Source: Pelobacter sp.
GTDB taxonomy: Bacteria; Desulfobacterota; Desulfuromonadia; Geobacterales; Pseudopelobacteraceae
Assembly: GCA_030824515.1 (NCBI GenBank)
Contig: JAVBXN010000012.1
Span: 62,001-126,000 of the forward strand
Direction: 5' to 3'
Length of the DNA stretch: 64,000 nt
Part shown: positions 33,878 through 55,040 of the stretch, in pieces
Layout of the letters: each line of letters opens with the position of its first letter
Position numbering within the stretch: position 1 is the stretch's first letter
Position numbers and translations under genes: made by a program
Notes under the pieces: generated by a model
Told to the model about the DNA's origin: nothing
Database searches by the model: none
Seen by the model: only the letters and a program-made list of their open reading frames with translations

Positions 33878-33952
<75 letters not shown>

Positions 33953-34022: not shown

Positions 34023-35225
34023 TTAGTTTTTTGCTGCGAGCAGGCGTTGATATTGCTCAACCAGCCGGAGGATCCGTGCCCCCCAGGAGTGAACCTGTAC
34101 GGCCCTTTGCCGGGATCGCTCCCCAAGATCAGCAGCAGATACGTTATCCTCCAGAGCGCTTACGATACAGTCCGCAAGCGAGGAGGCGCTGCCATATTCG
34201 GCATATATGCCGACGTCACCGAGTATTTCCCGGTTTATCGAGCTATCGAAGGCCACAGTCGGCAATCCGCAGGCCATGTAGTTGAACAGCTTGCCGTTGG
34301 CTTCAGTGCGCGCCAGCTTTGGTGAGACAGCCACATCACCGGCACTCAGGTACAATGGAGCGGAATCGTACGGAACCCGGCCTGTAAAGCTGATCACATC
34401 GTCAATGCCCATTTCCGATGCCTTTCTGCGATACTCTTGATCCGGAAAACCCATCAGCAGGAAACGGACTCCCGGCACCCTGGCCCTGACGGAAGCGATT
34501 GAATCAAGGAGCAGATCAAGCCCCTGATAGCTGCTGAACAGCCCGAGATAGACAACAACCCTGGCGTCTTCGGATATACCCAGCTCCTGCCTGGCCTGCA
34601 GGCGTGAGCATGGCCGAAAAACCTCCGTATCCACTCCATCGATCAACGTGCTGACTTTTTCAGGCGAAACGCCGAAATCCCTGACCAATTCACGCTGCCC
34701 CTCTCCGGAGCTGGTAATGATCGCATCCGCACAACAGTCAATTGCACGTTCGATGCTGACAAAGATCCTGTGTAGCAGCGATCTGTCCTTTAAAAATCCA
34801 TGGTTGAGCGATTCTCCGCTGAGACTGCCCTGGTAATCGAACAGCAACGGCACTCTCAAAACGCGTTTCAGAATGAACCCGATCAGGGCTCCTTCATGCA
34901 GATGGGCATGAATTATATCGGGACGGAAAGTACGTGCGGTAGCGTAGGCCTTCAGCAGCAGCAGGATGTCCAGGTAGGGCTTGTGCCAGGACGGACCAGC
35001 TCCGAGCTTTTTATACCAGGGAATTTGTGGAATCCTGACCACCCGGACTCCAGGCATGTCCTTACCCAGATGATAGGTAACGATACAGACCTCATGCCCC
35101 ACAGCGGTCAGAGCCCTGGCTTCCTCATAGATCCTGACATGACAGCCCCGGTCGGCAAAATAGGGTGTCGGGGCCAGCATCAGAATTTTATGCCGTTGTT
35201 TATCAGTGGATGAGTGCAAGTCCAT
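34023..35225 (-). CDS. Glycosyltransferase family 4
   Basis: The 400-residue GT-B enzyme has an N-terminal acceptor domain (PTPYFADRGCHVRIYEEARAL split over 16-36) and a C-terminal donor domain with VYLGLFSSYQGLD, FTGRVPYD and the E-x7-E region TEANGKLFNYMACGLPTV, where nucleotide sugar binds. It would add a sugar to a lipid- or glycan-linked acceptor at the inner face of the membrane. It is the last gene of a four-gene glycan group on this strand. Confidence 0.87.
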   Translation of the reverse strand: MDLHSSTDKQRHKILMLAPTPYFADRGCHVRIYEEARALTAVGHEVCIVTYHLGKDMPGVRVVRIPQIPWYKKLGAGPSWHKPYLDILLLLKAYATARTFRPDIIHAHLHEGALIGFILKRVLRVPLLFDYQGSLSGESLNHGFLKDRSLLHRIFVSIERAIDCCADAIITSSGEGQRELVRDFGVSPEKVSTLIDGVDTEVFRPCSRLQARQELGISEDARVVVYLGLFSSYQGLDLLLDSIASVRARVPGVRFLLMGFPDQEYRRKASEMGIDDVISFTGRVPYDSAPLYLSAGDVAVSPKLARTEANGKLFNYMACGLPTVAFDSSINREILGDVGIYAEYGSASSLADCIVSALEDNVSAADLGERSRQRAVQVHSWGARILRLVEQYQRLLAAKN

Positions 35226-35293
35226 AGTTTTTTTTGTTTAAGTTATTGGTTCGTTAGGATTGCAAAAGCAGGTCTGTCCGAGACTATGGACGT

Positions 35294-37012
35294 TCATCTC
35301 TGTTTCGGAGCCAGGAAGTTAACCAGCATGCGTGCTTCGTAATCTCCAGGATTTTTTTTCAGATGGAGTGAATAGTAGGTATAAGACTCCGCGTATTTCC
35401 CCAGCTTCAGGGACGATCGCCCAAGCGCGAGATTGATCCTTGTCCGGTTTGGATCCTCGCGTAAGAGACGCAATGCTTCGGCATACATGGTTTCATAGAC
35501 GGATGCCGATGGTATCGCGAATTTCTCCCAGATGTGCTTATACTTCTCATCTTTCTTCAGATAGACGACAGCGATGTCGTCACGATAGACAAGAACCCAG
35601 CCGGGATCTTTGGCAAGAGTTTCAACCAGTGGCACCGGCCCACCGGAGTCATAGTAACAGGTGCGACTGATCACCGTGTTTACATTGTAGCGTTTGAAAT
35701 CTTCGAGCCAACCATCCCAACTGTTGTCTATCCTGTTGGAAACGTCCAGTATCTCGGAACTGGTATTTCTGCCATCAACGAAAACCTGATAATCCGGATA
35801 CAGCTTCCACATGAGATAACCGCCCCAATCATAGAAATTGTAGACCGTCTTCGGTAAGCGGTTCTGCTGAAGGAATTGTGTCGCAGCCACCGGAAAGCTT
35901 GTCTGACAGAGTCCCCACCCCCATGGAGCCCTGACCACATTCAGATACAGAAACAGGGCCAGAGCCAATAGCGTGCAGTAGCGGCAGACCGATTGAAAGA
36001 GATGTGACTTGTTTTGTTTCGGCCAATATTTTCGCACCACATATTGCAGAGAGACCGGCAGGTAGAAGCCGGCTAGAATCGGCACGAAGACCGAATGGCG
36101 AACCTGGCTTGTCCCCATATACAGAAACGCACAGAAGAAAATAATCTCTGCAGGATCATTATTTTTCCACTTTGCAACCAGAACGGCGCCCCACAAGACA
36201 AAAACCACATAGAACAGCACTATCTGGTCCGAGGCGGGCGGCAACCACTCCATTATCGCCTGTTGTCCGGAGCTTATGTTCGTCAAGTTCAGGTGACCAA
36301 GCACTTGCATCGGGATTCTGCTGCCATACGGATTGATGAAAGCAGTACCAAACACCGCAAGACCGATGCCGGCGAGCAGAAGTATTTTATTCCCTGTTGT
36401 ATCCTTCAGTACCAATCGCACGATCTCGCCGATGAAAAACAGGCCGATAAGTACAAAACCGAATATGCAGCCGGCATGAAGATTTGCCCAGACCAGCATC
36501 AGCGGAATCAGCCAGAACCAGGCTTTGCTGCCCGGCTCGCGCCCTTTGTGCAGCAGCAGTATGTACAGGATTGAGAAGAGGAAGGTCCACAGCTGGGGAC
36601 GTTCTACCCACGAGGCTATGGATGCGGCCAGACACAGGGTCAAAACCGGTGCGATGAGTAAGGGGTCTCCTCCACGTCGCAAGTTAACGCGATACAGCAG
36701 AAAAGCACATAACGTAATAAGAACGGTTTTCAGGAGAGAGAGCAGCTTGTATCCGCCGGCAAGGTAGTGGAGATAGAATATTATGTCCGAAAGCCAGCAA
36801 TGCTCCAGGCGAAAGGCGTCCGGTGTAATACTGAAGGTATCGCGATACAGAAAATGTCCGGATGCCAGAATGTACTTTCCACTCTGGAGTTGCCAGAAAG
36901 TATCGAAGTCTTCCATGGGACGGAGCGCAACAATGAACACAACCAGCAGCAACAGCCAACCCGGCCATTGATTCGAAATATTACGCAATGGAGCCATATT
37001 TGATTCAGGCAT
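35294..37012 (-). CDS. Multi-pass membrane protein, probable GT-C type glycosyltransferase
   Basis: The protein of about 572 residues has 10 or more membrane segments up to about 400, then a soluble domain ending in a TPR-like pair of helices (NRTRINLALGRSSLKLGKYAE). The first external loop has RPMEDFDTFWQLQSG, an acidic pattern found where GT-C enzymes place their catalytic Asp. It overlaps the GT2 gene upstream, like GtrB/GT-C pairs that pass a polyprenyl-phosphate sugar to an outside acceptor. Start ATG 37012 is chosen; GTG 37018 is also possible. Confidence 0.65.
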   Translation of the reverse strand: MPESNMAPLRNISNQWPGWLLLLVVFIVALRPMEDFDTFWQLQSGKYILASGHFLYRDTFSITPDAFRLEHCWLSDIIFYLHYLAGGYKLLSLLKTVLITLCAFLLYRVNLRRGGDPLLIAPVLTLCLAASIASWVERPQLWTFLFSILYILLLHKGREPGSKAWFWLIPLMLVWANLHAGCIFGFVLIGLFFIGEIVRLVLKDTTGNKILLLAGIGLAVFGTAFINPYGSRIPMQVLGHLNLTNISSGQQAIMEWLPPASDQIVLFYVVFVLWGAVLVAKWKNNDPAEIIFFCAFLYMGTSQVRHSVFVPILAGFYLPVSLQYVVRKYWPKQNKSHLFQSVCRYCTLLALALFLYLNVVRAPWGWGLCQTSFPVAATQFLQQNRLPKTVYNFYDWGGYLMWKLYPDYQVFVDGRNTSSEILDVSNRIDNSWDGWLEDFKRYNVNTVISRTCYYDSGGPVPLVETLAKDPGWVLVYRDDIAVVYLKKDEKYKHIWEKFAIPSASVYETMYAEALRLLREDPNRTRINLALGRSSLKLGKYAESYTYYSLHLKKNPGDYEARMLVNFLAPKQR

Positions 37013-37964
37013 TTTCACTGTCTATGTTGATTCGGTCGCGCACCACATAGATCGGCTTACCCTGTGACTCAAAGTATGTCCTGGCGTTCAGTTCGCCCAA
37101 CAATCCCATAACTATGAACTGAATCCCCATGAACAGCAGAAACAGGGTCAGTATCAGCAAAGGATTACGATTCATGCTGAGGTGTTCAAACAGTTTCATA
37201 TACACGGTCATGGTTCCGGTCAAAACACCCAAAATAATGGTATAAACCCCCCATTTGCCAAACAGTTGAATCGGCTTGGTCGAATACACCAACAGGAATT
37301 TTACCGTCATCAGATCGAGTATCACGCGTAATGTTCGTGAGATGCCGTATTTGCTGACACCGTGAAGGCGCGGATAATGATTGACCGGCAATTCAGTAAC
37401 CTTGGCGCCCACCTGTGACGCCAGCGCCGGAACGAAGCGGTGCATTTCGCCGTAAAGATTTATGCCGTCCAACACCTCACGACGATAGGCTTTTAGTGTA
37501 CATCCGTAATCGTGAAGATGGACACCCGTCAGGCGCGAGATCAGGGAATTGGCCAGAATTGAGGGTATTTTGCGGGTTATGAAAGTGTCCTTGCGATCTC
37601 TTCTCCAACCGGAGACCACATCAAAGCCTTCATGAATCTTGTCAACAAGTCGCGGTATGTCGGCAGGGTCGTTCTGGAGGTCGCCATCCATCGGGATTAT
37701 TATGCTGCCGCGCGCGACATCAAACCCCGCCGCCATGGCAGCTGTCTGGCCGAAGTTCCTGCGGAAGCGGATTAACTTGAGACATGTGTCCTCTTTTGCA
37801 ATCTTGGCAAGCAGGGCATATGACCCATCACTTGATCCATCATCGACCATAATGAGTTCATATCCGCATTTCATCCGCAGCATTGCTTCAGTTATCGCCG
37901 TGTACAACGCGTTTACGTTGTCCTGTTCATTATAGATCGGTACTACAATACTGATGATATCCAA
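37005..37964 (-). CDS. Family 2 glycosyltransferase, GtrB/DPM-like
   Basis: The 319-residue protein has the GT-A motifs VVPIYNEQDNV, VDDGSSDGS and PMDGDLQNDP (DxD), then two C-terminal membrane helices (about 230-255 and 265-290). This is the plan of polyprenyl-phosphate glycosyltransferases such as GtrB and ArnC, which load a sugar on undecaprenyl phosphate. Its gene overlaps the GT-C-like gene, supporting a lipid-linked sugar route. Confidence 0.88.
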   Translation of the reverse strand: MDIISIVVPIYNEQDNVNALYTAITEAMLRMKCGYELIMVDDGSSDGSYALLAKIAKEDTCLKLIRFRRNFGQTAAMAAGFDVARGSIIIPMDGDLQNDPADIPRLVDKIHEGFDVVSGWRRDRKDTFITRKIPSILANSLISRLTGVHLHDYGCTLKAYRREVLDGINLYGEMHRFVPALASQVGAKVTELPVNHYPRLHGVSKYGISRTLRVILDLMTVKFLLVYSTKPIQLFGKWGVYTIILGVLTGTMTVYMKLFEHLSMNRNPLLILTLFLLFMGIQFIVMGLLGELNARTYFESQGKPIYVVRDRINIDSENA

Positions 37965-38048
37965 AGCGGAATCACTCCTCGAATTCTAATATCCTTAAAG
38001 CTGTACGACTCTACCGAAAAACTGACTGGTTGTCTGCATAAATTCCGT

Positions 38049-39011
38049 TCAGTAAGACTCAGGGAACTCCTGCCCGAATTCCTTTATTCTGGTGACCACG
38101 ATTCCATCGCTACGCACCGGATCCGGCTTGCCGCCCGCCAGGCCATACAACAGACCAACCCCGTTAACACAATGCATCAGAGGATAGAGCAGCATTAAAG
38201 TCAGAGCAGAAATACTGCCGGTTTTACCAATTCCGATCATAGTGAATATCGACACAATGACCGCATAAACAATTAACGGCGCCAGCAGCATCATGTCAAA
38301 AGGCAAAAACACTAAAATGATTAGGTATAGTACAAATAAAAGCGGCACATAGCTGATTATGGGATACGACCCGGTTATCAAGGATTGTTGTGCCCGCCCT
38401 CTCCCATAGGCAAACATCTGACGGACAAAAGCCATCAGGGTTGAACGCTGACTTCTGAGTACTTTCATGTCCGGAATATGCATCAACCTGAACCCTGCTG
38501 ACCTGATCCTGTCAAGCAGTTCGTTCTCCTCATTCGGGTAGAGCCGTTCATCAAAACCACCCAGTGCCAGGAACACGGACCTGCGTACTGCCAGATTACA
38601 TAGAATCAGCTCTTTATCGGTAGTATCGCGGGGTTGGCCAAACTCTCTGTAACGATTTCTGACACCACCAGAGCCGAGCACGGATGACAGGGCAAATCCA
38701 AACAGTCGTTGCAGCCGGCTGTCTGTGGTGGGAGTGATTGATGGACCACCGACAACCGCAACATCATGACATTCCATGACTTTGCTGCAAATTGTCAGAT
38801 TGTCGCTGTTGAGCCGGGAGTCGTCATCAATAAAATACAGAATGTCACCAGTAGCGGCTCTCGCTGCCAGGTTACGCTGCTGACTGGGGGCGCTCCCTTC
38901 GGCCAGCAACACTTCATAGATATTTTTGTCATAAGCTGATTGCCGGATAGAGTCGAATGCGGCGACATGGCTGCCATGCTTGACAGGAACAACGATCGAG
39001 ATTGAGGTCAT
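38049..39011 (-). CDS. Family 2 glycosyltransferase with C-terminal membrane segments
   Basis: The 320-residue protein has a short GT-A domain with IVVPVKHGSHV, FIDDDSRLN (DxD) and NEENELLDRIRSAGFRL, the acceptor/base motif, then about three membrane segments at 225-300. It probably elongates a surface glycan. It lies 84 bases upstream of the GtrB-like gene. The cytochrome cluster begins on its other side after a terminator. Confidence 0.83.
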   Translation of the reverse strand: MTSISIVVPVKHGSHVAAFDSIRQSAYDKNIYEVLLAEGSAPSQQRNLAARAATGDILYFIDDDSRLNSDNLTICSKVMECHDVAVVGGPSITPTTDSRLQRLFGFALSSVLGSGGVRNRYREFGQPRDTTDKELILCNLAVRRSVFLALGGFDERLYPNEENELLDRIRSAGFRLMHIPDMKVLRSQRSTLMAFVRQMFAYGRGRAQQSLITGSYPIISYVPLLFVLYLIILVFLPFDMMLLAPLIVYAVIVSIFTMIGIGKTGSISALTLMLLYPLMHCVNGVGLLYGLAGGKPDPVRSDGIVVTRIKEFGQEFPESY

Positions 39012-39060: not shown

Positions 39061-39084
39061 AAAAAAAACCGGGACTGGCCCGGT
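39061..39084 (-). terminator. Terminator at the end of the cytochrome cluster
   Basis: On the minus strand CCGGG, five-base loop, CCCGG, then eight T residues. It lies about 25 bases past the stop of the outer-membrane protein gene and separates that cluster from the glycan genes. Confidence 0.85.
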
Positions 39085-39108: not shown

Positions 39109-41394
39109 CTAAAATGACTTTTTGACATTGGCCGTAAATTTTTTCTCTATCAGGCCATCAGACTGACGTTTTCCCTGAAAATAATCAAGAGATGCATTAA
39201 AAAGCCTGAAGTTGGTGCCGATTGATGCATACCACATCAAACTGTAATTTTTAATTTTATTATCATATTGATATCTTGTCCCGCCTGCCAGTACCAATTG
39301 CCGTAACGGATAATATTTGAAACCCATGGTGAGCGATGCTTTGTTGACGCGATTATTGATGATAGTTGAATTAGCATTAGGTGAAGCATTTACAACCGGA
39401 GAATATGAATATGTCAAAACTTCGTTAAGCTCAAACATTCTGCGAGACATGCCGGAATTACTGAAATATCTATAATTCAGATGCTGTTCGGCATCGTAGC
39501 TGCTTGAAATTTGATTGGCATCAGTCCAGCGGTAATAGGAAGCTGCCAGTTTTGAATCAAGATTACGATTAAACGCATATTCAAGGGAGGCAACATTACT
39601 GAACATCGTCGTGTTCAGCTCCATTTGATAGTTGCCTCTGGCATAGGTGAGAACATCGCTGAATTTCAAATTGTTGAGTGAATAATTAACTGTTCCGGAC
39701 ACTGTTGTAATATTGTTGGAGCCTGTATTTGCAGACGAAAATATATCCTCGATCAGATTAAGTCCCAGATTCAAACGCGGCAATGGATTCCAGGTTACAA
39801 CCAAACTTGATAGAGACCGATAACTGGATGAGCCGATACTATCGGCTGCGACACTTCTTGGGCTTACATACTGAGGTATAGAAGTATTAGAATCTCTTAC
39901 GGTACTATTGAAGATGCTGTTATTCCCGGTTGTGAAATCATTTTCCTGCCGAAATGTTATGCGAAGCTGATTAGAAGGGGTATAGCCGGCATCCAGCGAG
40001 AGTTTCTGCTCGAGAAAGTTTGTACTACTCGAAGAATATCTGTTATTGGAGTTTTTGATCTTATAGGCGGCCCCCAGAGTTAACTTCCTGGAAAATGAGG
40101 GGGTACTGGTGGTTTCAAGGCCACCGGAAAGCACCAGCATTTTGGAATTTTCCGAAACTGTGGACTCAACATCCAGGCTCTGATTCAAGGTAAACAACGA
40201 ACGTTTGAATGCATCGACCCTGTAACCGGCCAACATACTTTCCAGGTGCGCGCCGGTATTATCGTGCGTTTCCCGATAGGAAGCCCTGGTGCTCCAGGAT
40301 ACTTCCGGGTTCAGTACTCCCGAGACATACAAAGGTATCGTGGTGCGATTGGTAAGCTTACCGTTCTCTTCCCGATAGCGGTTAAAATTGTTAAAGCTGC
40401 GCGCTTCCCAATATCTGCGTTGCGCATGTGCAAAAACATTTACGTCGACTTCTTCGTAATTTTGCCCCATCGACACACTGGTTTTCCTGGATAACTGCAG
40501 GTCGGTTGATACCCTGAGCCAGTTGGAAAAATCTATCCAACGGCGGGCCAGTGTGTGATCAACCGTTCCAATCTGGATTTGACTCTCTTTATAATTATTG
40601 TACGAGTCAATGTAGTCGTCATAGGTTGTATACCGGTAATGAAACCAGTTATCTTTTTTGTTGAGACTTACGAAAGCAAGACGTGTAAGTCTGTTATCTA
40701 CCGGAGTTTGTGACCGTAGGTCCCGATTGAGCTGGTCGCTGTAATCAAGCATGATCATCGGCAAATGCCGAAGAATTTCATTATAACCGTTAGTCATGCC
40801 GTTCTTTACACCGGCAACGAGCGTTGCCCCACTGTTGATATGAATACCGTCGTTGATCCCGGATGCCAGATAAGGTGTGCCAAGCAAAGTACCGTTTTGG
40901 GAGGTCATGCTGGCAATTAGCGGTGTATCGGAAGTGATCATGGTATTTTGGGTCATGTCACGGCTGTAGGCTGTAAGTCTGAAAGGAATCTCCTTGGGAT
41001 CCAGCAACAATTCCCCGCTGAACAGGAAATGACCACGATTGGTCTGTATACTCTCTGTACCCTTTTCAGATTTGATCGAAGTATCCAGCGCTGACCAGTT
41101 ATAACCTAGCGAAACATTGTACTTGCCGATCCTTGAATTGTAGATGTTGCCGGCGTGCTCGTAAAGCAGCGAATAGTCATGGGTAAATGACTGGGCTGAC
41201 AGATGGCGACCGGAGTCATTGCGGACATCATAGTTGGTATAATTGAGTGCTGCCTGGGCTGACAGCCTGGCTACGGCAGGCGAAGGCCATAGCAGGGCGA
41301 CCATAAGCAATAGTACCGCGGGGATCGACCAGTTGTGGCGCAACAGGTTAGGTATCATAGAGCCTGAGACACTTTTGAGTATATAGAAATTCAC
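39109..41394 (-). CDS. Probable outer-membrane beta-barrel protein
   Basis: The 761-residue protein has a signal peptide (IPAVLLLMVALLWPSPAVA) and then, through the whole length, alternating beta strands with aromatic girdle residues, and ends in Phe (FTANVKKSF), the usual signal for the Bam machinery. It has few Cys residues and no CXXCH. It is much longer than classic porins and has no recognised domain name. It lies in the cytochrome/NHL cluster, so it may be the pore through which an external cytochrome is reached. Start GTG 41394 or ATG 41358. Confidence 0.7.
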   Translation of the reverse strand: MNFYILKSVSGSMIPNLLRHNWSIPAVLLLMVALLWPSPAVARLSAQAALNYTNYDVRNDSGRHLSAQSFTHDYSLLYEHAGNIYNSRIGKYNVSLGYNWSALDTSIKSEKGTESIQTNRGHFLFSGELLLDPKEIPFRLTAYSRDMTQNTMITSDTPLIASMTSQNGTLLGTPYLASGINDGIHINSGATLVAGVKNGMTNGYNEILRHLPMIMLDYSDQLNRDLRSQTPVDNRLTRLAFVSLNKKDNWFHYRYTTYDDYIDSYNNYKESQIQIGTVDHTLARRWIDFSNWLRVSTDLQLSRKTSVSMGQNYEEVDVNVFAHAQRRYWEARSFNNFNRYREENGKLTNRTTIPLYVSGVLNPEVSWSTRASYRETHDNTGAHLESMLAGYRVDAFKRSLFTLNQSLDVESTVSENSKMLVLSGGLETTSTPSFSRKLTLGAAYKIKNSNNRYSSSSTNFLEQKLSLDAGYTPSNQLRITFRQENDFTTGNNSIFNSTVRDSNTSIPQYVSPRSVAADSIGSSSYRSLSSLVVTWNPLPRLNLGLNLIEDIFSSANTGSNNITTVSGTVNYSLNNLKFSDVLTYARGNYQMELNTTMFSNVASLEYAFNRNLDSKLAASYYRWTDANQISSSYDAEQHLNYRYFSNSGMSRRMFELNEVLTYSYSPVVNASPNANSTIINNRVNKASLTMGFKYYPLRQLVLAGGTRYQYDNKIKNYSLMWYASIGTNFRLFNASLDYFQGKRQSDGLIEKKFTANVKKSF

Positions 41395-41579
41395 GAAGAG
41401 ATCGATGCAATTTTAACGCCAACACAACCTGGCGTATACCCAACAAACACAGCAACCCGAACATGGCGAATAAGGCCGGCGGACGGGAATCCGCTGCAAT
41501 ATCATTGAGAAGCAAGAAACCGGGTCACACTTTTATCCTGCCATTTAACCTTGCTGAACGTGAAATAGCGCAGCAATAA

Positions 41580-42653
41580 CTATTGTGCACGGTGACCGTT
41601 TAGAAACGACTCTGATAAATATTGAAAAACCTGGACACGCGCATTCAGCTGGTCAACTACGTATATTCTGTCATTTGTGTCAATATCTATACCTACCGGC
41701 ACTGAAAAGCCACCGGGAGCAACCTTTCCCGAACCTGATATGGCATAAAATGCACCCAGCACCAAAAGCAGCTCACCACGTTCATTAAATATGGACACAG
41801 AGTGTGATCGCCCGTCAACCACATAAATATTATCGGATGAATCGACCGCAATAGATTTTATCAACTGGAAGTCACCCGCCGAATCCCCTCTACGGCCAAA
41901 CTTACGAAGGAACTTGCCATCTGCGTCAAATATCTGGACGACAGCGTCAAAAGCGTCAGCAACGATGATCTGTCCCTTGGAATTTATAACAAGCGCAACC
42001 GGAAGATTGAACTGACCGGCAGCATCACCACTGGAGCCGATACTGCGCTGAACAACCCCCATCAGATCCATTACTATCAACTTTCGAGAAGTGGCATCAG
42101 AAACATACAACAAGCTTTTTTTCTTATCGATCGCTAACGCAATAGGATTTGAAACAGAAACTGATTTTAAACGGATCGCACGTAAATATTTTTCAGAACT
42201 GTCGAAAACCAGGACCGTGGCTGTTCTACGTTCAAGCACGTACAGATTATTATCACGATCGGTTACCACCGATAGAGGATGAGTTATGGTTGGTGCGCCT
42301 TCGGGAGTAACCAGGCTTCTTAGTTCATGCTTGCCAAGATCAAAAACCATTACCGACGCCCTGCCGACATCGGATACGTAAAATCGTTTTAGCTCGGGAA
42401 CCGATTTCACCTCAATCGGCTTCAGCAGTGAGACCGGCTCATCCGAGCCCATTATCGCCGCAAAAAAGCGTTGAGAATCACTTTTCTCAATATCCAGCTG
42501 ACTGCTGTAAGCTTTTATCCATTCAATACGGGGTACATCAGGCGGCGGTGGCCAGAAGTAACGCTCAGTAGGCTCAGGAACCGTACCGGCACAAGCAGAA
42601 AGCAGAAGCATTACCATAACAAGGAAACTATATAGCAGACGGGTATTTATCAT
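41580..42653 (-). CDS. NHL-repeat lipoprotein (paralogue 1)
   Basis: The 357-residue protein has a lipoprotein signal with lipobox LLSAC (Cys 21), the motif FWPPPPD.PRIEW at about 33-46, and six NHL-type blades, for example GQIIVADAFDAVVQIFDADGK split over 230-250 and NIYVVDGRSHSVSIFNERG over 276-295. NHL propellers bind proteins. The same lipobox-plus-FWPPPPD layout occurs in the gene at 43733-44830, so these are duplicates. It is anchored in the outer or inner membrane, facing the periplasm or surface. Confidence 0.85.
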   Translation of the reverse strand: MINTRLLYSFLVMVMLLLSACAGTVPEPTERYFWPPPPDVPRIEWIKAYSSQLDIEKSDSQRFFAAIMGSDEPVSLLKPIEVKSVPELKRFYVSDVGRASVMVFDLGKHELRSLVTPEGAPTITHPLSVVTDRDNNLYVLERRTATVLVFDSSEKYLRAIRLKSVSVSNPIALAIDKKKSLLYVSDATSRKLIVMDLMGVVQRSIGSSGDAAGQFNLPVALVINSKGQIIVADAFDAVVQIFDADGKFLRKFGRRGDSAGDFQLIKSIAVDSSDNIYVVDGRSHSVSIFNERGELLLVLGAFYAISGSGKVAPGGFSVPVGIDIDTNDRIYVVDQLNARVQVFQYLSESFLNGHRAQ

Positions 42654-42691
42654 GGCGGTTTTATAACATGAATCCCAGATGTTTTAAACAC

Positions 42692-42719
42692 AAAAAGGGC
42701 GGGAAAACCCGCCCTTTTT
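42692..42719 (-). terminator. Perfect hairpin terminator after the tetrahaem cytochrome gene
   Basis: AAAAAGGGCGGG, AAAA loop, CCCGCCCTTTTT is a 12-pair perfect palindrome ending in T on either strand. It lies 20 bases past the cytochrome stop and about 40 bases before NHL paralogue 1, so the downstream pair probably needs its own promoter or read-through. Confidence 0.92.
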
Positions 42720-42738
42720 GCCTATTATCGAATCAGGA

Positions 42739-43434
42739 TTAGTTCTGGTGACAAGCCCTGCAGAGCGCGCTGCCAGTATTGGCTATGCGCAGGAACGGAG
42801 GGTTGGCATTATCATGAACCTTGTGGCAGCTCGAACATTCCATCTGATCGGTCTTAGCACCGTAGTTAAAGAAGACCATCTGGTTGGTTGCATTAGTAGC
42901 AGTTGCAAGCGGCTGAAGCGCAGTGCCTTTGTTAGGAGCTACGCCCCTCTGCGATACAGCAACCGAATAGCTGAATCCGATCGGGTGATCATTGGTCAGG
43001 TCTGTGCCGAGGCCGCTTCCGGCTGCAAAAGTACCAACGTAGGTAGCAGTATTGAGATCGGTGTCTTTGGCATTATCTCTTACAAATGCGTTAACATCGG
43101 CAGCAACACCGGCGGCAGCTGCGTGGCAGGACAGACACTGCAGAGAGATACTTCCGGTGGACAGAGCAGCATTTTTTGCAGCAGTCGACAGAGTAACCGA
43201 TGACGTATAGAATTTGAACGATGCGGCCGAAGGATCCAGACGATTCCAGAGCGGAACTTTAGGCGCGGCATTATGCGGAGCGTGACAATGCTCACAGAGT
43301 TTCTCGCTGCTGGTAGCCCTGATAGCCTGGGCACCTGAGTTAGACAGGTCATGTTTCGAGTTTCTAATCGAGAGAGCAAACGCCGAACTGGAAACCAGAA
43401 CCAGACCCAACATTACAACCATTGTTTTTTTCAT
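42739..43434 (-). CDS. Periplasmic or exported tetrahaem cytochrome c
   Basis: The 231-residue protein has a signal peptide (VVMLGLVLVSSSAFA) and four CXXCH motifs: CEHCH, CLSCH, CSSCH and CRACH, the last just before the C-terminus. The wide, Ser/Thr/Ala-rich spacing between haem 2 and 3 (about 100 residues) is unusual for small cytochromes and suggests an extra beta domain. GAAAGGAAA stands before the ATG. A terminator follows directly. Confidence 0.87.
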   Translation of the reverse strand: MKKTMVVMLGLVLVSSSAFALSIRNSKHDLSNSGAQAIRATSSEKLCEHCHAPHNAAPKVPLWNRLDPSAASFKFYTSSVTLSTAAKNAALSTGSISLQCLSCHAAAAGVAADVNAFVRDNAKDTDLNTATYVGTFAAGSGLGTDLTNDHPIGFSYSVAVSQRGVAPNKGTALQPLATATNATNQMVFFNYGAKTDQMECSSCHKVHDNANPPFLRIANTGSALCRACHQN

Positions 43435-43732
43435 TTTTGCTTTCCTTTCATTTGTTAAAATTTGATCTAAACCGGATGTGCAGGCCTAAGCCTGTTTCAG
43501 CAATTAATCTCAAAAAATCGATCCAGCAAACCTCCTTTCAATCGAACTCATTCCAGATATTGGTTCTATCAATATAGTACCATTCAAAGATTCAATTTAC
43601 ACAAACAGCAATCTATATGCCAAAAACGTTTCGATTGAAATACGCTGTAATTTCTGTCAGTTAAAAGCAGATGAGTATTAGCTACACAAAGTCAACTCCG
43701 CAAATAGCCGCACTTGCCGGCCATTGACGCTG
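43435..43732. other. 298-base gap inside the cytochrome cluster
   Basis: AT-rich. It contains a small inverted repeat CAGGC-CTAA-GCCTG near 43480-43500 and a TTGACT box near 43688-43693 on the minus strand, so a promoter for the tetrahaem gene is likely. I looked for a c-di-GMP (GEMM) riboswitch here and did not find its core. Confidence 0.4.
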
Positions 43733-44830
43733 CTATTTAACCGGTGTTTTCACTCCCCCGCCGGGTTCTTTATCAAGGTGGTATTTTTTGAGTTCAATGG
43801 CGTTCATATATTGGAAGATTTGCAGCCGTCTGTTGCCCATATCCGCGACATAGATACGGTCATGCGCATCTATGAATATCCCCTGGGGAAGCAGGAATCC
43901 ACCGGCAACCACCGTTTCACCCTGACTTTGGGAATAGGGTGCTCCGATTGAAATAAGCACTTCTCCCTTTGAATTAAAAACCTGCATGCGACTATAGCGA
44001 GCATCGACTACATAAATATGATCCTCACTATCGAGCGCCAGTCCTTTGATAATCCCAAAATCACCTACACCGTCACCGCGCATACCGAACTTGGATATAA
44101 AAACGCCTTCTGGTGAAAAGCACTGTACTCTGGCATTGAATGAATCGGATATATAGATGTTTCCCTTGCTATCCAGAGCAGCTCCGACAGGATAATTAAA
44201 CTCGCCGTCCTGCCCGCCTTTCTTGCCAAAACTGTACAGCAGTTTGCCATCCAAAGAAAAGATTGCAACCTTATGTGAGTTAGCGTCCGGCACAATCAGA
44301 TGCTCCAGTTTCTTGTCGATGGCGAATGCCCCCACCGACTTGACATCGGAAGACAAGTCAAGAACCTTAAGCACCTTGTTTTCACTATTGACGACGTAAA
44401 CTTTGCAGCTTCTGTCATCACCGGCATAAATCAAGCCTTTGCCATCAAATGCGACTCCGGTCGGCTTGCTGGTACTTCCGACCATGACGGAACTACCCAG
44501 CACATCAAATTTTTTCTTATTGAGATCAAGAACAACAAAGGCGGACTGACCAGGATCACTGACAACAATTTTGTCCTCGGAATTACCGCCGATAAACAGA
44601 GGAGAGGTAAACCCCAGCTCACTCTGTTCGCCCACCAGGTCTCGCATCAGCGATGTGCCACCCCTCAGGTCGGAATCATTGTAATAGGTGGCCAACCACT
44701 CAATTTTGGGTTCATCGGGCGGTGGCGGCCAAAACAAACGTTTCTTGACAACAGGCCCCGCTGAAGCGCATGCCGTTAATAGAGAAATGGCAAGCAGTCC
44801 TACTGAAATCAACTTTAAAAACATTCCCAT
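43733..44830 (-). CDS. NHL-repeat lipoprotein (paralogue 2)
   Basis: The 365-residue protein has lipobox LLTAC (Cys 21), FWPPPPDEPKIEW at about 33-45 and six NHL blades with phrases like GNIYISDSFNARVQCFSPEG and DRIYVADMGNRRLQIF. It shares architecture and the FWPPPPD motif with the lipoprotein at 41580-42653. It follows the octahaem cytochrome by 18 bases, so it is in that operon. A role as scaffold for cytochromes or the barrel protein is inference. Confidence 0.85.
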   Translation of the reverse strand: MGMFLKLISVGLLAISLLTACASAGPVVKKRLFWPPPPDEPKIEWLATYYNDSDLRGGTSLMRDLVGEQSELGFTSPLFIGGNSEDKIVVSDPGQSAFVVLDLNKKKFDVLGSSVMVGSTSKPTGVAFDGKGLIYAGDDRSCKVYVVNSENKVLKVLDLSSDVKSVGAFAIDKKLEHLIVPDANSHKVAIFSLDGKLLYSFGKKGGQDGEFNYPVGAALDSKGNIYISDSFNARVQCFSPEGVFISKFGMRGDGVGDFGIIKGLALDSEDHIYVVDARYSRMQVFNSKGEVLISIGAPYSQSQGETVVAGGFLLPQGIFIDAHDRIYVADMGNRRLQIFQYMNAIELKKYHLDKEPGGGVKTPVK

Positions 44831-44848
44831 TTAATAAACTCCAGTCAT

Positions 44849-45838
44849 TTATTTATTATGGCAGGCCTGACAAAGCGCCATACGGTCTTCCACATTATTG
44901 AAGAAGAAATACCGTACGTTTCCGCCATGCGGAGCATGGCAGGAGATACAGCTCATCTGCTTGCCACTGCCGGCCCTTAACGGGTCTTTCCTTCCGGACA
45001 GAGGGTGCCCTTCACCGGTTGTTGTCATGACCACATGCTTCTGATTGGCAATATGCCCATGGCACGACAGACACAACTCGTTTATCGGCTTTTTAAGCTG
45101 AAACTCATTCTGACTGCCGTGGGCTTCATGGCAGGCCTCACACATACCCGCTTCAATCGGACCATGGACGTATTTTTTCTTTTTGATCTGAACCGCCATA
45201 TCGGCATGGCACTCGTAACAGAGCGCAGCTTCCCGCTTGGCAACGGAATGTTTCGGGTTACCTTTACTTGCATGGCAATAACCGCAGGAGTAGGTTCCGG
45301 CCGGTCCATGTACATACTTAACCGACAGCAGTTTTTTATGACAGGCATAGCATGGATTTTCTTTTTCAATACTGCTGTTCATCTGGGCCGGTGTCGGATT
45401 CATGTTATGGCATGATTGACAGAGTCTTTCTTTCTCTGGTCGGTGCATAACAACGGGCGAATACTCTGGAGGAACCTTGTGGGTACTTCCTTCAGGCACA
45501 AAAAAGACCGAGAGACTTGCGGACTCAACCTTTTGCCCCCCCTTGAAAAGATCAACGACAACTTTATTTGCCCCTTGATCCCAAAGTGATTGAGCAATGA
45601 AAAAATCCTGGAACAACTTGCGATACTCCGGCATGCCTACATCTACGGATTCGCCGGCAACGCCGTTAAGTGTTATACGCAATGAGGATATGTCATTCTG
45701 ATTGAGTTTGAAAATGAGATGCCCTGAAGTGGTAACAGAACTGTTTTGGGAGGGATATATAAAATCAATTGCAGCCTGGGCTGCTGTAACCGTTAAAAGC
45801 GCTACAACCGATATGACAAGCACTACACGCTTCAGCAT
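44849..45838 (-). CDS. Octahaem cytochrome c with N-terminal beta domain
   Basis: The 329-residue protein has a Sec signal (VVLVISVVALLTVTAAQA), a haem-free domain at about 22-130 that looks like an Ig/cadherin-type sandwich, then eight CXXCH motifs: CQSCH, CYACH, CGYCH, CYECH, CEACH, CLSCH, CISCH, CQACH. The paired, His-rich spacing (KYVHGP repeats) is of the doubled-CXXCH class. The sandwich may bind a partner or substrate. It lies between the larger cytochrome and NHL paralogue 2. Confidence 0.9.
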   Translation of the reverse strand: MLKRVVLVISVVALLTVTAAQAAIDFIYPSQNSSVTTSGHLIFKLNQNDISSLRITLNGVAGESVDVGMPEYRKLFQDFFIAQSLWDQGANKVVVDLFKGGQKVESASLSVFFVPEGSTHKVPPEYSPVVMHRPEKERLCQSCHNMNPTPAQMNSSIEKENPCYACHKKLLSVKYVHGPAGTYSCGYCHASKGNPKHSVAKREAALCYECHADMAVQIKKKKYVHGPIEAGMCEACHEAHGSQNEFQLKKPINELCLSCHGHIANQKHVVMTTTGEGHPLSGRKDPLRAGSGKQMSCISCHAPHGGNVRYFFFNNVEDRMALCQACHNK

Positions 45839-45881
45839 CGTACTCTCCTTGAAAAGTTCAGGAATGTCCGAATTAACGGAG

Positions 45882-46901
45882 CTACGGGTTCACAACCGGA
45901 TCTATCCTGTTATACGATTTTGGTTTGTGACACCCAACTACACAGGTTCCACCAACGTCATTTTTGGTATAACGGATAGGAATACGCCAACGCCCGAAAC
46001 CGCTCACTTTACTGGATATAAGTTTCGGTTGGCTTGAAGCGTGAGGGTCATGACAGACCTTGCACGATCTGCCTTTGTCCGCCTTGTTGACATGAAGAAA
46101 ATGCAGATTGAACATTCCGTTTCTGAAATTGGTGGCAGCGCCGGTGCGTTGATCATCGGCAAGAGAGGCGGAATGGCATTTAAAGCAAAGATCAAACTGC
46201 GCTTTACTGAAAGAGGTATAAAAGTCTTCGGGAAAACTATGCTTCAACAGGTGCGGATATTGCGTGCCATGTGTCACGTGACATGCCGAACATTCGCCGG
46301 TAGATACCGGACCGTGTATGGATTTTCCGGAAAACATCGATTTGTTGTGGCACATGATGCAAAGGGCTGATCCTTCCGCTTTCAAAATATACTTATTGTC
46401 AGACTGGTGCGGGTCGTGGCAATCAAGGCACTTGCCTTCAGTAATAGGAGGATGCGGGAATTTCCTGCCCAGTTTTGTCTTGTCGTGACACATGTAACAA
46501 AGCGCCACGCCTGATGCTTTCAGCTGAAACTTGTTGTCGCTCTGATGAACATCATGGCAATCAAGACAATCACCGGAAGCTACCGGCCCATGGACATATT
46601 TTTTGATGTCCTTGCGTTCATGGCACTCATTGCAGAGTCCTACTTTGCCGTTGTCAGTCAGAAGAAAAGCACCTTTTTTGACTTTGGGATGCTTTTGATC
46701 AGACGGTTTATGGCAGGAAGAGCACTCCCCATCTTTTACCGGCTTATGGGTAAATGACTTGTCCGCCTTGTTGGGGTGGCATCCACAGTTCATTTCCCCG
46801 GCGGCCTCTGCCGGACGTTCTTGTGACACAAGCAGGACGCCGGATATTCCAGCCAGGACTGCAAAGCTCAAACAGATGATTTTGGTGGATGCAATGTTCA
46901 C
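45882..46901 (-). CDS. Multihaem cytochrome c with non-canonical haem motifs
   Basis: The 339-residue protein (GTG start 46901, giving a normal signal peptide ICLSFAVLAGISGVLLV) has nine CXXCH motifs: CSSCH, CNECH, CLDCH, CYMCH, CLDCH, CIMCH, CSACH, CFKCH, CKVCH. There is also a CX3CH (CVVGCH) near the C-terminus and a CXCH (NCGCH) right after the signal peptide. KYVHGP-type spacers match the octahaem protein. It could hold 10 or 11 haems. It directly follows resC; the ATG-started longer frame would lack a proper signal peptide. Confidence 0.88.
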   Translation of the reverse strand: MNIASTKIICLSFAVLAGISGVLLVSQERPAEAAGEMNCGCHPNKADKSFTHKPVKDGECSSCHKPSDQKHPKVKKGAFLLTDNGKVGLCNECHERKDIKKYVHGPVASGDCLDCHDVHQSDNKFQLKASGVALCYMCHDKTKLGRKFPHPPITEGKCLDCHDPHQSDNKYILKAEGSALCIMCHNKSMFSGKSIHGPVSTGECSACHVTHGTQYPHLLKHSFPEDFYTSFSKAQFDLCFKCHSASLADDQRTGAATNFRNGMFNLHFLHVNKADKGRSCKVCHDPHASSQPKLISSKVSGFGRWRIPIRYTKNDVGGTCVVGCHKPKSYNRIDPVVNP

Positions 46902-46917
46902 GTCAGAACCGTACCCT

Positions 46918-47775
46918 TTATTTTGCCCCGCCGCCATAACTGTGAAGACCGGAGAGGAAAAGGTTGACACCCAGATAGCAGAATATGGTTGCGGCAAATC
47001 CGATCACTGAAAGCCAGGCGGCCCGTTTACCGACCCAGCCCCTGGTAAAGCGGGCATGCAGAAACGCGGCATATACGAACCATACGATCAGAGACCAGGT
47101 TTCCTTGGGATCCCAACTCCAGTATGTACCCCAGGCATAATTGGCCCATGCTGCGCCGGTGATGATACCAAGAGTCAACAACGGGAAACCGATCATGATG
47201 GCACGGTAGTTGAGATCGTCCAGAACTTTCAGAGGTGGAAACATTGACATCAGACCGCCGGCCTGCGCAGAAGAGTCGTTGCATTCAAGTGCCGCCTTTA
47301 TCAGATACATGATTGAAATGCCGCAGGCAACTGCAAAAGCGGCGTAACCGAGAAAGCAGGTTATGACATGGTACAGCAGCCAGTTACTCTGCAAAGCCGG
47401 AACCAGTGGTTCAATTCCGGTATTCATGCCAAGTTGCGCCCAAGCCATGCCCAACAATGCAAACGGAATAACAAAAGCCCCGATAATTCTGTATTTATAT
47501 TTCAGATCGATATAGGCGAACAACAGAACAATCGTCCATGCAAAAAAAACTATCGACTCGTACAGGTTGGACATCGGCGCATGACCGACTCCCATGTCGT
47601 ACGATTCTTTCCAGCGCAGACCGATCGCCAGGGTGTGAACAGCAAGCCCGGCGTATGCTATCAAACTACCGGCAAAGCCGATGGATTTATTTTTGCCGGC
47701 AAGAAATGCAAAGAATACGATCATGGAGATCAAATAGGCGATTGTTGCGACATTAAAAAACATGGAACTGGTCAT
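46918..47775 (-). CDS. Cytochrome c synthase subunit ResC/CcsA
   Basis: The 285-residue membrane protein has about eight membrane segments and the WWD-type haem-handling motif WGTYWSWDPKETWSLIVW near 215-232, with conserved His residues flanking it. With ResB it forms the system II synthase that exports haem and attaches it to CXXCH motifs. It sits 16 bases after resB and directly before the cytochromes, so it may serve these substrates in particular. Confidence 0.93.
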   Translation of the reverse strand: MTSSMFFNVATIAYLISMIVFFAFLAGKNKSIGFAGSLIAYAGLAVHTLAIGLRWKESYDMGVGHAPMSNLYESIVFFAWTIVLLFAYIDLKYKYRIIGAFVIPFALLGMAWAQLGMNTGIEPLVPALQSNWLLYHVITCFLGYAAFAVACGISIMYLIKAALECNDSSAQAGGLMSMFPPLKVLDDLNYRAIMIGFPLLTLGIITGAAWANYAWGTYWSWDPKETWSLIVWFVYAAFLHARFTRGWVGKRAAWLSVIGFAATIFCYLGVNLFLSGLHSYGGGAK

Positions 47776-47791
47776 GAACAGGTATCCTCCG

Positions 47792-49156
47792 CTAAATTTT
47801 CAACTGTTGAAACTTCTCTGCAATTGTATCGAACTGCATCTCGAAAGCTGCCTGATTCTTGCTGGCATTGCCGTAGATGCGGGCATGCCCCTTGGATATT
47901 ATCAACCAGATCCGCTTGTGAGACATAAAGAAAGCGATATAGAGACCTATCACCATCAGCGTGCATCCAAGCCACACTACCCAAACCCCCGGATCCTTGG
48001 CAACCTGAAGACCGGTGTACATCCTGGCATTTGTCCCATCATAACCAAAAATCAGAGCATCTCCACGCTGGGCATTCATTTCAGGAAAATCCTTGAATAT
48101 GATGAAAGTCTGAGGCGTTGCGCCCTTGCGCGTGACCTCTATCCTGGCTGCCGGACCTGAAAATCCGGGTGCGAACTGGCGAACTTCCTGAGTGGCCTCC
48201 AGCAACTTGACCATGGTTCCATCACTGAGTGTCACTGCGGCGCCTTCATGAACTGCAATTTTTTCAGGCGCGCCACCGGAACGGGGAGTTACAGTAATGT
48301 AATGTTCACTCCCTTCAGAGGCCTGTCCATAGCTGGACTGATAAAAGGTTATTCCCTTATAGGTAAGGGGGTGATTGACAATTACCTTTACCTGTGAATA
48401 TCCCGGCACAGGCTTGCCGTTCTCCAGTACAGTCAATATGCTCCTGAACTCCTTGGGAGCACCAGTGGCATAGAAATCAACACTGAATTTCTCACAGAGC
48501 ACCTCGAACCCAAGCGGTATCTGGTTGCCGTTTCGCCCTTCCACCGTATTAATGCTGGTCCCCTCAACAATCGAGACGAATCCTTTGTAACCGGATAACG
48601 AGCCGATAATAGCTCCTACAAAAATAACCAGAATACTCAGATGAACTACATACACACCCAAACGCGACCAGGCGCTCTTCTGGGAAAAAAGATGTAGCTC
48701 GCCGTTATGCTCCGTCACAACCGGCGAAGAAAACTCCGCGCCTAGAAACGCGGCCAGACTTTCTCGGCATTTTTCCGTCGGCCCTGATACTGATATCTCT
48801 CTCCGGAGTGAATAAGCGTTGCGTGCGGATTCAGTTAATACCAGAGTGGGTTCACTGACAAATTTGAACACATGTGGAAGACGCTTTATGGAACAGGAAA
48901 TCAGATTGAGGCTGAAAATGTACAGCAGGGAAATGAACCACCAGGAGTGATACATGTCGAAAAAACCAAGCTTTGTATATATCTGCAGCTTGGTGGGACT
49001 GATCTGGGCCACATACTCCGGTGGCAACTGCCCTTGCGGCAGAACAGTACCGATTATCGATGTGAGCGCCAATGAAATCAGCAAAAACAGGGTAAGCTTA
49101 AGTGAACAGAAAAAATCCCAGACGGTCTCTACAAAGCTTCGTTCGGTGGTTGCCAA
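47792..49156 (-). CDS. Cytochrome c synthase subunit ResB/Ccs1
   Basis: The 454-residue protein has three N-terminal membrane helices, a long periplasmic domain (about 190-385, including YKGITFYQSSYGQ, a ResB hallmark) and a last membrane helix near 395-415. It is the partner of ResC in system II cytochrome c biogenesis. It is the first gene of the cytochrome operon. Length fits the family. Confidence 0.92.
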   Translation of the reverse strand: MATTERSFVETVWDFFCSLKLTLFLLISLALTSIIGTVLPQGQLPPEYVAQISPTKLQIYTKLGFFDMYHSWWFISLLYIFSLNLISCSIKRLPHVFKFVSEPTLVLTESARNAYSLRREISVSGPTEKCRESLAAFLGAEFSSPVVTEHNGELHLFSQKSAWSRLGVYVVHLSILVIFVGAIIGSLSGYKGFVSIVEGTSINTVEGRNGNQIPLGFEVLCEKFSVDFYATGAPKEFRSILTVLENGKPVPGYSQVKVIVNHPLTYKGITFYQSSYGQASEGSEHYITVTPRSGGAPEKIAVHEGAAVTLSDGTMVKLLEATQEVRQFAPGFSGPAARIEVTRKGATPQTFIIFKDFPEMNAQRGDALIFGYDGTNARMYTGLQVAKDPGVWVVWLGCTLMVIGLYIAFFMSHKRIWLIISKGHARIYGNASKNQAAFEMQFDTIAEKFQQLKI

Positions 49157-49934: not shown

Positions 49935-50156
49935 ATGCAGATTACCGTTAAATTATATGGCTCTTTATGCTTCGGACGATTCCACTCTGCAGTACGTGAG
50001 TATCCGGACAGCAGCACCATTCAAACGATCGTAACGGACCTTGGCATTCCACCAGATTTCCTTATTCGCTTGAAAAACGGATATCATGTACCACTTGAAG
50101 AAGTGGTGGAAAACGGCGACACAGTTTCCCTTCTTCCTATGCTTGACGGCGGCTGA
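49935..50156 (+). CDS. MoaD/ThiS-type sulfur carrier next to AOR
   Basis: The 73-residue beta-grasp protein ends in DGG, the diglycine end that is thiocarboxylated. Such small carriers provide dithiolene sulfur for molybdo- or tungstopterin. Its place 79 bases before an AOR gene suggests it serves the tungsten cofactor of that enzyme. A purine-rich AGGAAAG precedes the ATG. Confidence 0.83.
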   Translation: MQITVKLYGSLCFGRFHSAVREYPDSSTIQTIVTDLGIPPDFLIRLKNGYHVPLEEVVENGDTVSLLPMLDGG

Positions 50157-50235
50157 CCCACTCCGGTTGGACGCTGGTCATAGCACCGAACTGACGTAAA
50201 ACCATAGTGAGTAATTCATCAAAAGGAGCAAGCAC

Positions 50236-54829: not shown

Positions 54830-54870
54830 TTGAATTAACAGTAAGCGCATCAAGTAAACGACATATACTT

Positions 54871-54976
54871 CTTATCGAGAGCGACCGAGGGACTGGCCCG
54901 GCGACGTCGCGGCAACCAGCTTGAAAAAGCAAGGTGCCAAATCCAGCGAAACCCTGACCGGTTTCGACAGATAAGG
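54871..54976 (+). promoter_or_regulatory. SAM (S-box, SAM-I type) riboswitch
   Basis: The element opens with CTTATCGAGAGCGACCGAGG, followed by GACTGGCCC, then CGGCAACCAGC and AAGGTGCCAAATCCAGCG, and closes with CAGATAAGG that pairs with CTTATCG to form P1. All S-box landmarks are present in order. It lies upstream of a cystathionine synthase/lyase pair, as in methionine operons. The expression platform seems to use GGAAGAG / CTCTTCC and CCCCGGAAGGGG hairpins just before the GGAGG site, so control of either termination or translation is possible. Confidence 0.95.
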
Positions 54977-55040
54977 AAGAGTGCCATCCAAAAGATCCTC
55001 TTCCGCACCCCGGAAGGGGATTCTTACTTTGGAGGCAGAT

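Follow-up and report, generated by a model that had tools for sequence, protein, structure and literature searches.

The window analysed here, a stretch of 64,000 nucleotides (nt) from Pelobacter sp. (GenBank assembly GCA_030824515.1, contig JAVBXN010000012.1, positions 62,001 to 126,000), carries a block of cytochrome, NHL-repeat and barrel genes, which was compared with related loci and with the omcE region of Geobacter sulfurreducens. The eight genes described in the initial annotation were all present on the minus strand within 10 kilobases (kb), at 39109–49156. Two of them were confirmed by Pfam and NCBIfam as resB and resC/ccsB, the pair that constitutes a system II cytochrome c synthase. 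They are accompanied by three multihaem cytochrome genes, by genes for two lipoproteins with NHL repeats and a lipobox visible at both N-termini, neither of which contains a CXXCH motif, and by the gene of the 761-residue barrel-like protein, for which, as for an orthologue, a beta structure with 34 long strands was predicted. Four further genes downstream (34023–39011), which had been missed, are part of the conserved block in most relatives. The intergenic gaps from resB through the first NHL gene are of 16–43 nt, and these five genes therefore look like one operon; the four-haem gene is isolated, at 298 nt from the preceding NHL gene and 85 nt from the following gene. The coordinates of all features are given in Table 1.

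Table 1. Features of the block and of its downstream genes in the window.
Feature	Position	Strand	Remarks
resB	47792..49156	-	First operon gene; PF05140, E 7.3e-102
resC/ccsB, haem lyase partner	46918..47775	-	PF01578, E 7.1e-55; TIGR03144 (CcsB) above cutoff
11-haem periplasmic cytochrome, MtrA/DmsE-like	45882..46901	-	GTG start; nine CXXCH, one CXCH and one CX3CH
8-haem cytochrome	44849..45838	-	N-terminal part of about 125 residues without haem
NHL-repeat (beta-propeller) lipoprotein, upstream copy	43733..44830	-	PF01436; lipobox
Sigma-54-like -24/-12 element, TGGCATATAGATTGCT	43607..43622	-	188 nt before the OmcE-like start
OmcE-family tetrahaem cytochrome, candidate filament subunit	42739..43434	-	7tfs match; eight invariant His
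Terminator-like stem after the OmcE-like gene	42691..42720	-	Locus-by-locus regulatory comparison
Second NHL-repeat lipoprotein	41580..42653	-	PF01436; lipobox
Predicted outer-membrane barrel, 761 residues, 34 predicted strands	39109..41394	-	AlphaFold2
Terminator-like stem after the barrel gene	39068..39084	-	General terminator scan
GT2-type glycosyltransferase (GT2b)	38049..39011	-	PF13632/PF00535; synteny
GT2-type glycosyltransferase (GT2a)	37005..37964	-	PF00535; NF007986, E 7.9e-68, below the cutoff of that model
Polytopic protein with C-terminal TPR, possible GT-C type transferase	35294..37018	-	Candidate
GT4-type glycosyltransferase (GT1)	34023..35225	-	PF13692; synteny

Related loci were read in 37 stretches chosen through the barrel or the eight-haem protein, 15 from the family of the window and 22 from other families; they are not independent, two of them being 95–99% identical to the window. 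Three of the 18 family genomes with a barrel match stand outside the 37, namely that of the window (G000), one with a fragment (G014) and one with a weak match among unrelated genes (G046, locus L045), and three of the 25 genomes of other families with a strong eight-haem match (G097, G081 and G085) were left out. The gene order, on whose conservation in relatives the initial proposal depended, was kept. The 15 family stretches showed the order resB-resC-11-haem-8-haem-NHL-4-haem-NHL-barrel wherever the contig was long enough, L037 having an extra open reading frame (ORF) of 543 residues within the block, and this order was mostly followed by GT2-GT2-(polytopic TPR protein)-GT4; the 22 stretches of other families had the same core order. 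The four-haem gene and at least one NHL gene were present in all 37 stretches (both NHL copies in 14), the barrel and the eight-haem gene in 36 each, resB and resC in 33 each, the 11-haem gene and GT2b in 30 each, GT2a in 29 (one weak) and GT4 in 27. The single misses of the eight-haem gene and the barrel correspond to one contig end and one split gene, and those of resB and resC to contig ends, as do the glycosyltransferase misses in L028, L032, L040, L108 and L115.

Among 141 genomes of the order, strong orthologues found with the eight-haem profile (expectation value (E) < 1e-100) were present in 40, and the eight-haem protein and the barrel occurred together in 39 of the 42 genomes having either (G025, with a barrel at E 5.8e-4, is excluded from this count). 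The synteny extends into neighbouring orders, and four loci from metagenome-assembled genomes of other Desulfuromonadales (L060–L063) keep the order 8-haem-NHL-4-haem-barrel-GT2a. Among named organisms, the block is carried by Geobacter sp. H7geo, Geobacter sp. L1geo and Pelotalea chapellei (DSM 13688, locus L055), to cite three. Over 26 loci, mean identity to the window decreases from 85% for ResC to 48% for the barrel and the OmcE-like protein, as expected for surface parts.

The four-haem protein was compared with solved structures. It matched 7tfs_A over residues 8–230 (phmmer, E 7.9e-42) and 9yuq_N (E 3.2e-27), and a profile built on 37 rows matched 7tfs at E 5.6e-82 and 9yuq at E 2e-47. 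Entry 7TFS is the OmcE filament (PMC12954529), and the nearest solved relatives of the protein are one filament and one 16-chain assembly. In the alignment (A6; the window and 36 loci, without L028), eight His columns were invariant in 37 of 37 rows, the number required for four bis-His haems, and the same eight are found in the alignment with 7tfs/OmcE. Outside the haem sites the sequence drifts, with a mean column identity of 37%, and drift in sequence has been reported for outer-surface cytochromes (PMC12977616, 2026). Judged by its relation to the solved subunit, its four CXXCH motifs with eight ligand His and its synteny with the omcE locus, the protein is a member of the OmcE filament family. 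By a simple pattern, a lipobox-like motif was found in the OmcE-like protein of none of the 37 loci. A tree of the four-haem proteins did not resolve orthology, as 15 of 45 forks were open and three paralogues had long branches.

G. sulfurreducens was compared by means of published locus tags and is not among the loci read. In this species ppcA is GSU0612, followed by a conserved cytochrome-biogenesis pair, GSU0613–0614 (PMC2700814), of which the first is ResB-like and the second ResC/HemX-like (PMC7894505). An operon gsu0615-0616-0617 is predicted, with ppcA, gsu0616 and omcE listed as GI-39995719, GI-39995723 and GI-39995725, respectively (PMC1829397, Table 1), and omcE is GSU0618 (PMC1829397, PMC2700814, PMC7894505, PMC13194489). 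The published tags ppcA-resB-resC-GSU0615-0616-0617-omcE match the order in the window, with ppcA in front, so that GSU0612–0618 presents the same kinds of genes in the same order, as far as these tags reach, and the block corresponds to the omcE locus instead of an unknown gene mix. The gene order thus gives good support to the block being a conserved omcE locus; the earlier view that it was none of the named sets was not sustained, and the place of the outer cytochrome, which, it had been suggested, the NHL lipoproteins could take, is already filled by an OmcE-type protein. In addition, OmcE of G. sulfurreducens is the closest solved relative of the four-haem protein, and the same species has a homologous barrel, P0150 (752 amino acids, 'hypothetical protein'), 36% identical to that of the window (E 2e-149), which, judging from other genomes, would adjoin omcE. 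The window differs from the G. sulfurreducens region in a second NHL lipoprotein gene, which follows the OmcE-like one, in its strongly diverged OmcE-like protein and in having no CXXCH ORF just before resB, where ppcA lies in that species; a three-haem ORF lies directly upstream of resB in L098, L101, L102 and L104.

Within the genome of the window, four of the five OmcE-like loci (C13, C55, C32 and C60, not C7) adjoin an NHL-repeat protein, which supports a standing partnership of OmcE-like and NHL proteins. Such genes are found at L042:5418-7138 (C55), L043:7151-9150 (C32) and L044:9589-13276 (C60). At C7, a riboswitch of the cyclic diguanylate (c-di-GMP) type c-di-GMP-I-GGC is located between two four-haem genes, the first of them OmcE-like (L041:9579-9663), and the locus also encodes 26-, 16-, 6- and 21-haem proteins. 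Among the stretches read from related genomes, three loci (L118:5171-6880, L119:13793-15493 and L123:4735-6435) encode 11-haem proteins that are OmcE-like in part. Neighbouring genes encode an NHL protein, a protein of about 890–920 residues and 13-, 8- and 12-haem cytochromes, and these loci are possibly a second type of filament locus.

The counts of nine, eight and four CXXCH motifs first given for the three cytochromes were right, but the nine-haem label was an undercount, since that protein has 11 conserved sites, with CXCH at residue 39 and CX3CH at residue 320 besides the nine CXXCH. In its alignment (A7; 26 rows, without L026, L028, L100, L103 and L105), 22 His columns were conserved in at least 25 rows, enough for eleven bis-His haems. 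The CX3CH motif, GGTCxVGCHK, was present in all 26 rows and in 30 of a wider set of 31, where the one exception is a truncated ORF. As first site, the window and the 14 family loci have CXCH and most others CXXCH, with CX4CH in L097 and L105 and CX3CH in L094, and the His of this site is constant. Over 37 rows, 15 His of the eight-haem protein are invariant, one below the number for eight bis-His haems, and one haem is therefore perhaps ligated otherwise or by a partner. Both proteins match 6r2q_A (E 9.6e-14 for the 11-haem protein), a chain listed as cystathionine beta-synthase in an entry with the title 'Structure of the Mtr complex', and which we take to be MtrA. Their signal-like N-termini without a lipobox point to multihaem cytochromes of the periplasm. 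A haem lyase dedicated only to the CXCH and CX3CH sites was considered and rejected, because resB and resC persist in six loci where the 11-haem gene is missing. The idea that ResBC pairs are dedicated to nearby cytochromes is already found in PMC2700814. The genome has a second ResC (C16:113212-114060), 82% identical to the cluster copy, perhaps from a duplicate haem-lyase pair.

The 761-residue barrel protein had no Pfam match and no PDB sequence match (none at E 1), and weak Pfam barrel matches were obtained for only two of the 36 rows of its alignment (A5, without L028 and L103). AlphaFold2 run on the 36 sequences gave a mean predicted local distance difference test (pLDDT) of 85.2, a predicted template modelling score (pTM) of 0.62 and 34 strands of at least nine residues for the window protein; the orthologue of L100, 36% identical, gave a pLDDT of 83.4, a pTM of 0.62 and again 34 strands, but the two models share most of the alignment and are therefore not independent. 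At least 90% of the rows end in Phe. The protein is predicted to be an integral outer-membrane beta protein, for which the estimated distance between backbones would be about 60–65 Å at 34 strands versus 46–50 Å at 26. SlpA-type barrels and MtrB (E 5.7e-9) led the Foldseek matches of the L100 model. With VIA-align, partial matches of about 230–420 residues were obtained, at a root-mean-square deviation of 9–15, and they take no part in the assignment of the fold. SprA, the barrel of type IX secretion (SprA/Sov), has 36 strands, is about 7 nm wide, holds folded cargo and was called the largest known barrel (PMC7463736, 2020). Like SprA, the window protein is predicted to be a giant single-chain barrel, but the likeness is in the predicted strand number only: SprA gave no PDB sequence match to the window barrel and was not among the Foldseek matches listed, and no sequence or system relation was found.

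The -24/-12 element before the four-haem gene was recognized by what we take to be the sigma-54 consensus. The strict pattern was found upstream of this gene in 24 of the 37 loci, where about 0.025 would be expected per stretch, and a relaxed pattern in 34, against about 0.10; the window has the strict form, and by eye the remaining three loci keep GG-N10-GC with a different first base. Other genes of the block gave 0 to 2 sigma-54-like matches. Terminator-like stems follow the four-haem gene in 35 of 37 loci and the barrel gene in 23 of 33. These data suggest that the filament gene is regulated separately from the rest of the block. A general scan gave 13 sigma-70-like sites versus 15.8 in shuffles and 14 terminator-like sites versus 10.8; it omits the stem after the OmcE-like gene, probably because the stem takes up the T run. 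In the main text of the paper on the G. sulfurreducens RpoN regulon, apart from its additional files, omcE does not appear by name or tag (PMC2725144).

OmcE is reported to be extensively glycosylated (PMC9473688). GT2a is the best conserved of the downstream genes (mean identity 80%, 22 loci) and resembles undecaprenyl-phosphate sugar transferases, with an NF007986 score below the cutoff, and the glycosyltransferases of the locus may modify the filament. At the downstream end of these genes there is a tRNA gene (33881-33952, minus strand). No riboswitch was found within the cluster in the scan of window positions 33000–56000; outside it, a SAM (S-adenosylmethionine) riboswitch (RF00162, 90.8 bits) lies at 54869-54977 on the plus strand, upstream of an ORF at 54981. 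A short ORF at about 49940-50160 on the plus strand, presumably MoaD/ThiS-like as judged by eye, precedes a 611-residue ORF at 50236.

On balance, the block is probably an omcE-type cytochrome-nanowire locus, of the Geobacterales type, whose conserved genes would form one filament production line, and its function would be the maturation, glycosylation, export and anchoring of the nanowire. ResBC would load haem onto the cytochromes of the locus, the glycosyltransferases would add sugars to the OmcE-like protein, and, at the outer membrane, the NHL propeller lipoproteins would keep hold of the haem-loaded subunit or fold it. With 34 predicted strands, close to the 36 of SprA, the barrel would release the folded holo-cytochrome or the growing filament and anchor it. 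The attachment of c-type haem takes place in the periplasm; the cytochrome must consequently exit folded, and a barrel of such size would fit this need. In the least sure step, the eight-haem protein, and the 11-haem protein where present, would pass electrons to the base of the filament; this feeding may depend on the other conduits. The osc operon of OmcS (Shen et al. 2025; PMC13194489, PMC12977616), in which companions of a filament cytochrome are proposed to fold (OscH), secrete (OscE-G) and shape the filament (PMC13194489, citing Shen 2025), is a precedent for such a companion gene set; OmcS is hexahaem and without sequence similarity to OmcE (PMC9473688), and the Osc proteins are likened here by their published description.

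Several observations weigh against this interpretation. The filament, the glycan and the interactions are proposals drawn from sequence. Most relatives are without the barrel, which is present in 18 of the 76 family genomes, that of the window included, and in 81 of the 277 genomes of the class (one weak). In L030, L109, L110 and L111 the glycosyltransferases are absent or differ despite 5.8–7.3 kb of downstream sequence in view, GT1 is missing in L038, and GT2a of L110 matches weakly. In family f3, six loci have a block without the 11-haem gene; their genomes hold relatives of it elsewhere, the best (G082) near full-length at E 7e-78. The strand number of the barrel depends on AlphaFold2 with a pTM of 0.62, and the best Foldseek match of the window model was MtrB of 6r2q, an electron-conduit barrel (E 6.7e-9, template modelling scores 0.27/0.31). 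Disruption of GSU0616, the eight-haem gene by synteny, increased U(VI) reduction by 30%, with all three tested acceptors up and polar effects possible (PMC1829397), which speaks against electron feeding by the eight-haem protein; without OmcE, U(VI) reduction was 45% lower (PMC1829397). OmcE is described as dispensable both for current and for the reduction of Fe(III) oxide (PMC13194489). Gmet_2896, at the same locus position in G. metallireducens, was described as different from omcE (PMC2700814), and with the four-haem tree unresolved the formation of filaments is not to be assumed for every member, in line with the warning that homology does not carry cytochrome function over (PMC12977616). 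Finally, reviews tie the export of OmcS and OmcZ to PilA-N, and OmcZ may self-assemble (PMC12307469).

A porin-cytochrome conduit, close to what the initial annotation proposed, would place the eight- or 11-haem cytochrome in the barrel, with the OmcE-like protein or filament as outer partner and export of the filament by other means, for example a pilus system; we consider it unlikely. What stands of that proposal is an electron-transfer locus whose gene order is conserved, with a protein indeed predicted as a barrel and a haem-lyase pair belonging to the operon. The locus shares periplasmic multihaem cytochromes and a barrel with Omb-Oma-Omc and Ext of G. sulfurreducens and MtrCAB of Shewanella, and the matches of both barrel models to MtrB, those of the two cytochromes to 6r2q_A and the nearly constant co-occurrence of the eight-haem protein with the barrel agree with a conduit, in which a partner could supply the His that the eight-haem protein lacks. 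However, the definition of a conduit requires an outer-membrane lipoprotein with redox cofactors (PMC6148476), and this is absent: the NHL lipoproteins have no haem motif, and the outer cytochrome, which belongs to the filament family, has no lipobox-like motif. The definition is not applied strictly, since extHIJKL, without an outer cytochrome, is accepted in the same paper (PMC6148476). A G. sulfurreducens strain lacking five other conduits had zero residual metal reduction, in a report where omcE is unmentioned (PMC6148476), and this, together with the haem-free NHL proteins, weakens the conduit, as do the increased reduction after GSU0616 disruption and the dispensability of the 11-haem gene in six loci. 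Moreover, 34 predicted strands would by their geometry exceed the need of a single haem wire, compared with 18 segments in ExtB and 21 each in ExtE and ExtI (PMC6148476). A conduit role in other species, or in feeding the base of the filament, is possible.

We consider it equally improbable that no filament is made here and that the tetrahaem protein exists as a monomer, soluble or at the surface, with the locus serving a short-range surface cytochrome. The strong divergence outside the haem sites would suit a monomer, OmcE was initially reported to be loosely associated with the surface (PMC1829397), and homologues of filament proteins need not polymerise (PMC12977616), but all eight OmcE ligand His are retained in every row and the solved structures nearest to the protein are those of a filament and of an assembly with 16 chains. 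Least probable is the juxtaposition of two systems, an OmcE/cytochrome operon that begins with resB and ends with the OmcE-like gene, and, unrelated to it, an envelope glycan system of barrel and glycosyltransferases, such as a polysaccharide exporter, for which the terminator-like stems, implying separate transcription units, and the loss of glycosyltransferases at some loci could be adduced, because the barrel is gained and lost together with the eight-haem gene, stays beside the OmcE-like gene where glycosyltransferases are missing (L030) and in other orders (L060–L063), and OmcE itself is glycosylated (PMC9473688).

Returning to the filament production line, a more specific and clearly more doubtful form of it is that the 34-strand barrel is the exit port of an undescribed outer-membrane export system for holo-cytochrome filaments, with NHL holdases, linked glycosylation and a multihaem partner charging the base. 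This is put forward tentatively; if true, the exit port would be near the 36-strand SprA in size, by prediction.

OmcE, OmcE homologues and locus-dedicated ResBC pairs are already known. In the open-access literature searched, other than the OmcE structure and Osc papers, no accessory genes or machinery of OmcE were found, and, as far as seen within that literature, the class-wide synteny of the block, its inclusion of a predicted 34-strand barrel, its link with glycosyltransferases, the sigma-54-like element and an eleven-haem protein in which two sites are unusual are new. Three filaments have been seen in G. sulfurreducens, OmcE among them. According to a 2025 review (PMC12307469), it is still unsettled how nanowires mature, pass through the outer membrane, are anchored and are fed. 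Not every Geobacter species conserves OmcE (PMC5877670), and the present data add to this view that, where the locus is kept, the sequence of the subunit drifts around eight fixed His. The locus offers a compact gene set with class-wide conservation, comprising a candidate export pore, linked genes for glycosylation and a filament gene preceded by a sigma-54-like element, and it would make the question of how nanowires exit the cell testable, in tractable species by single deletions.

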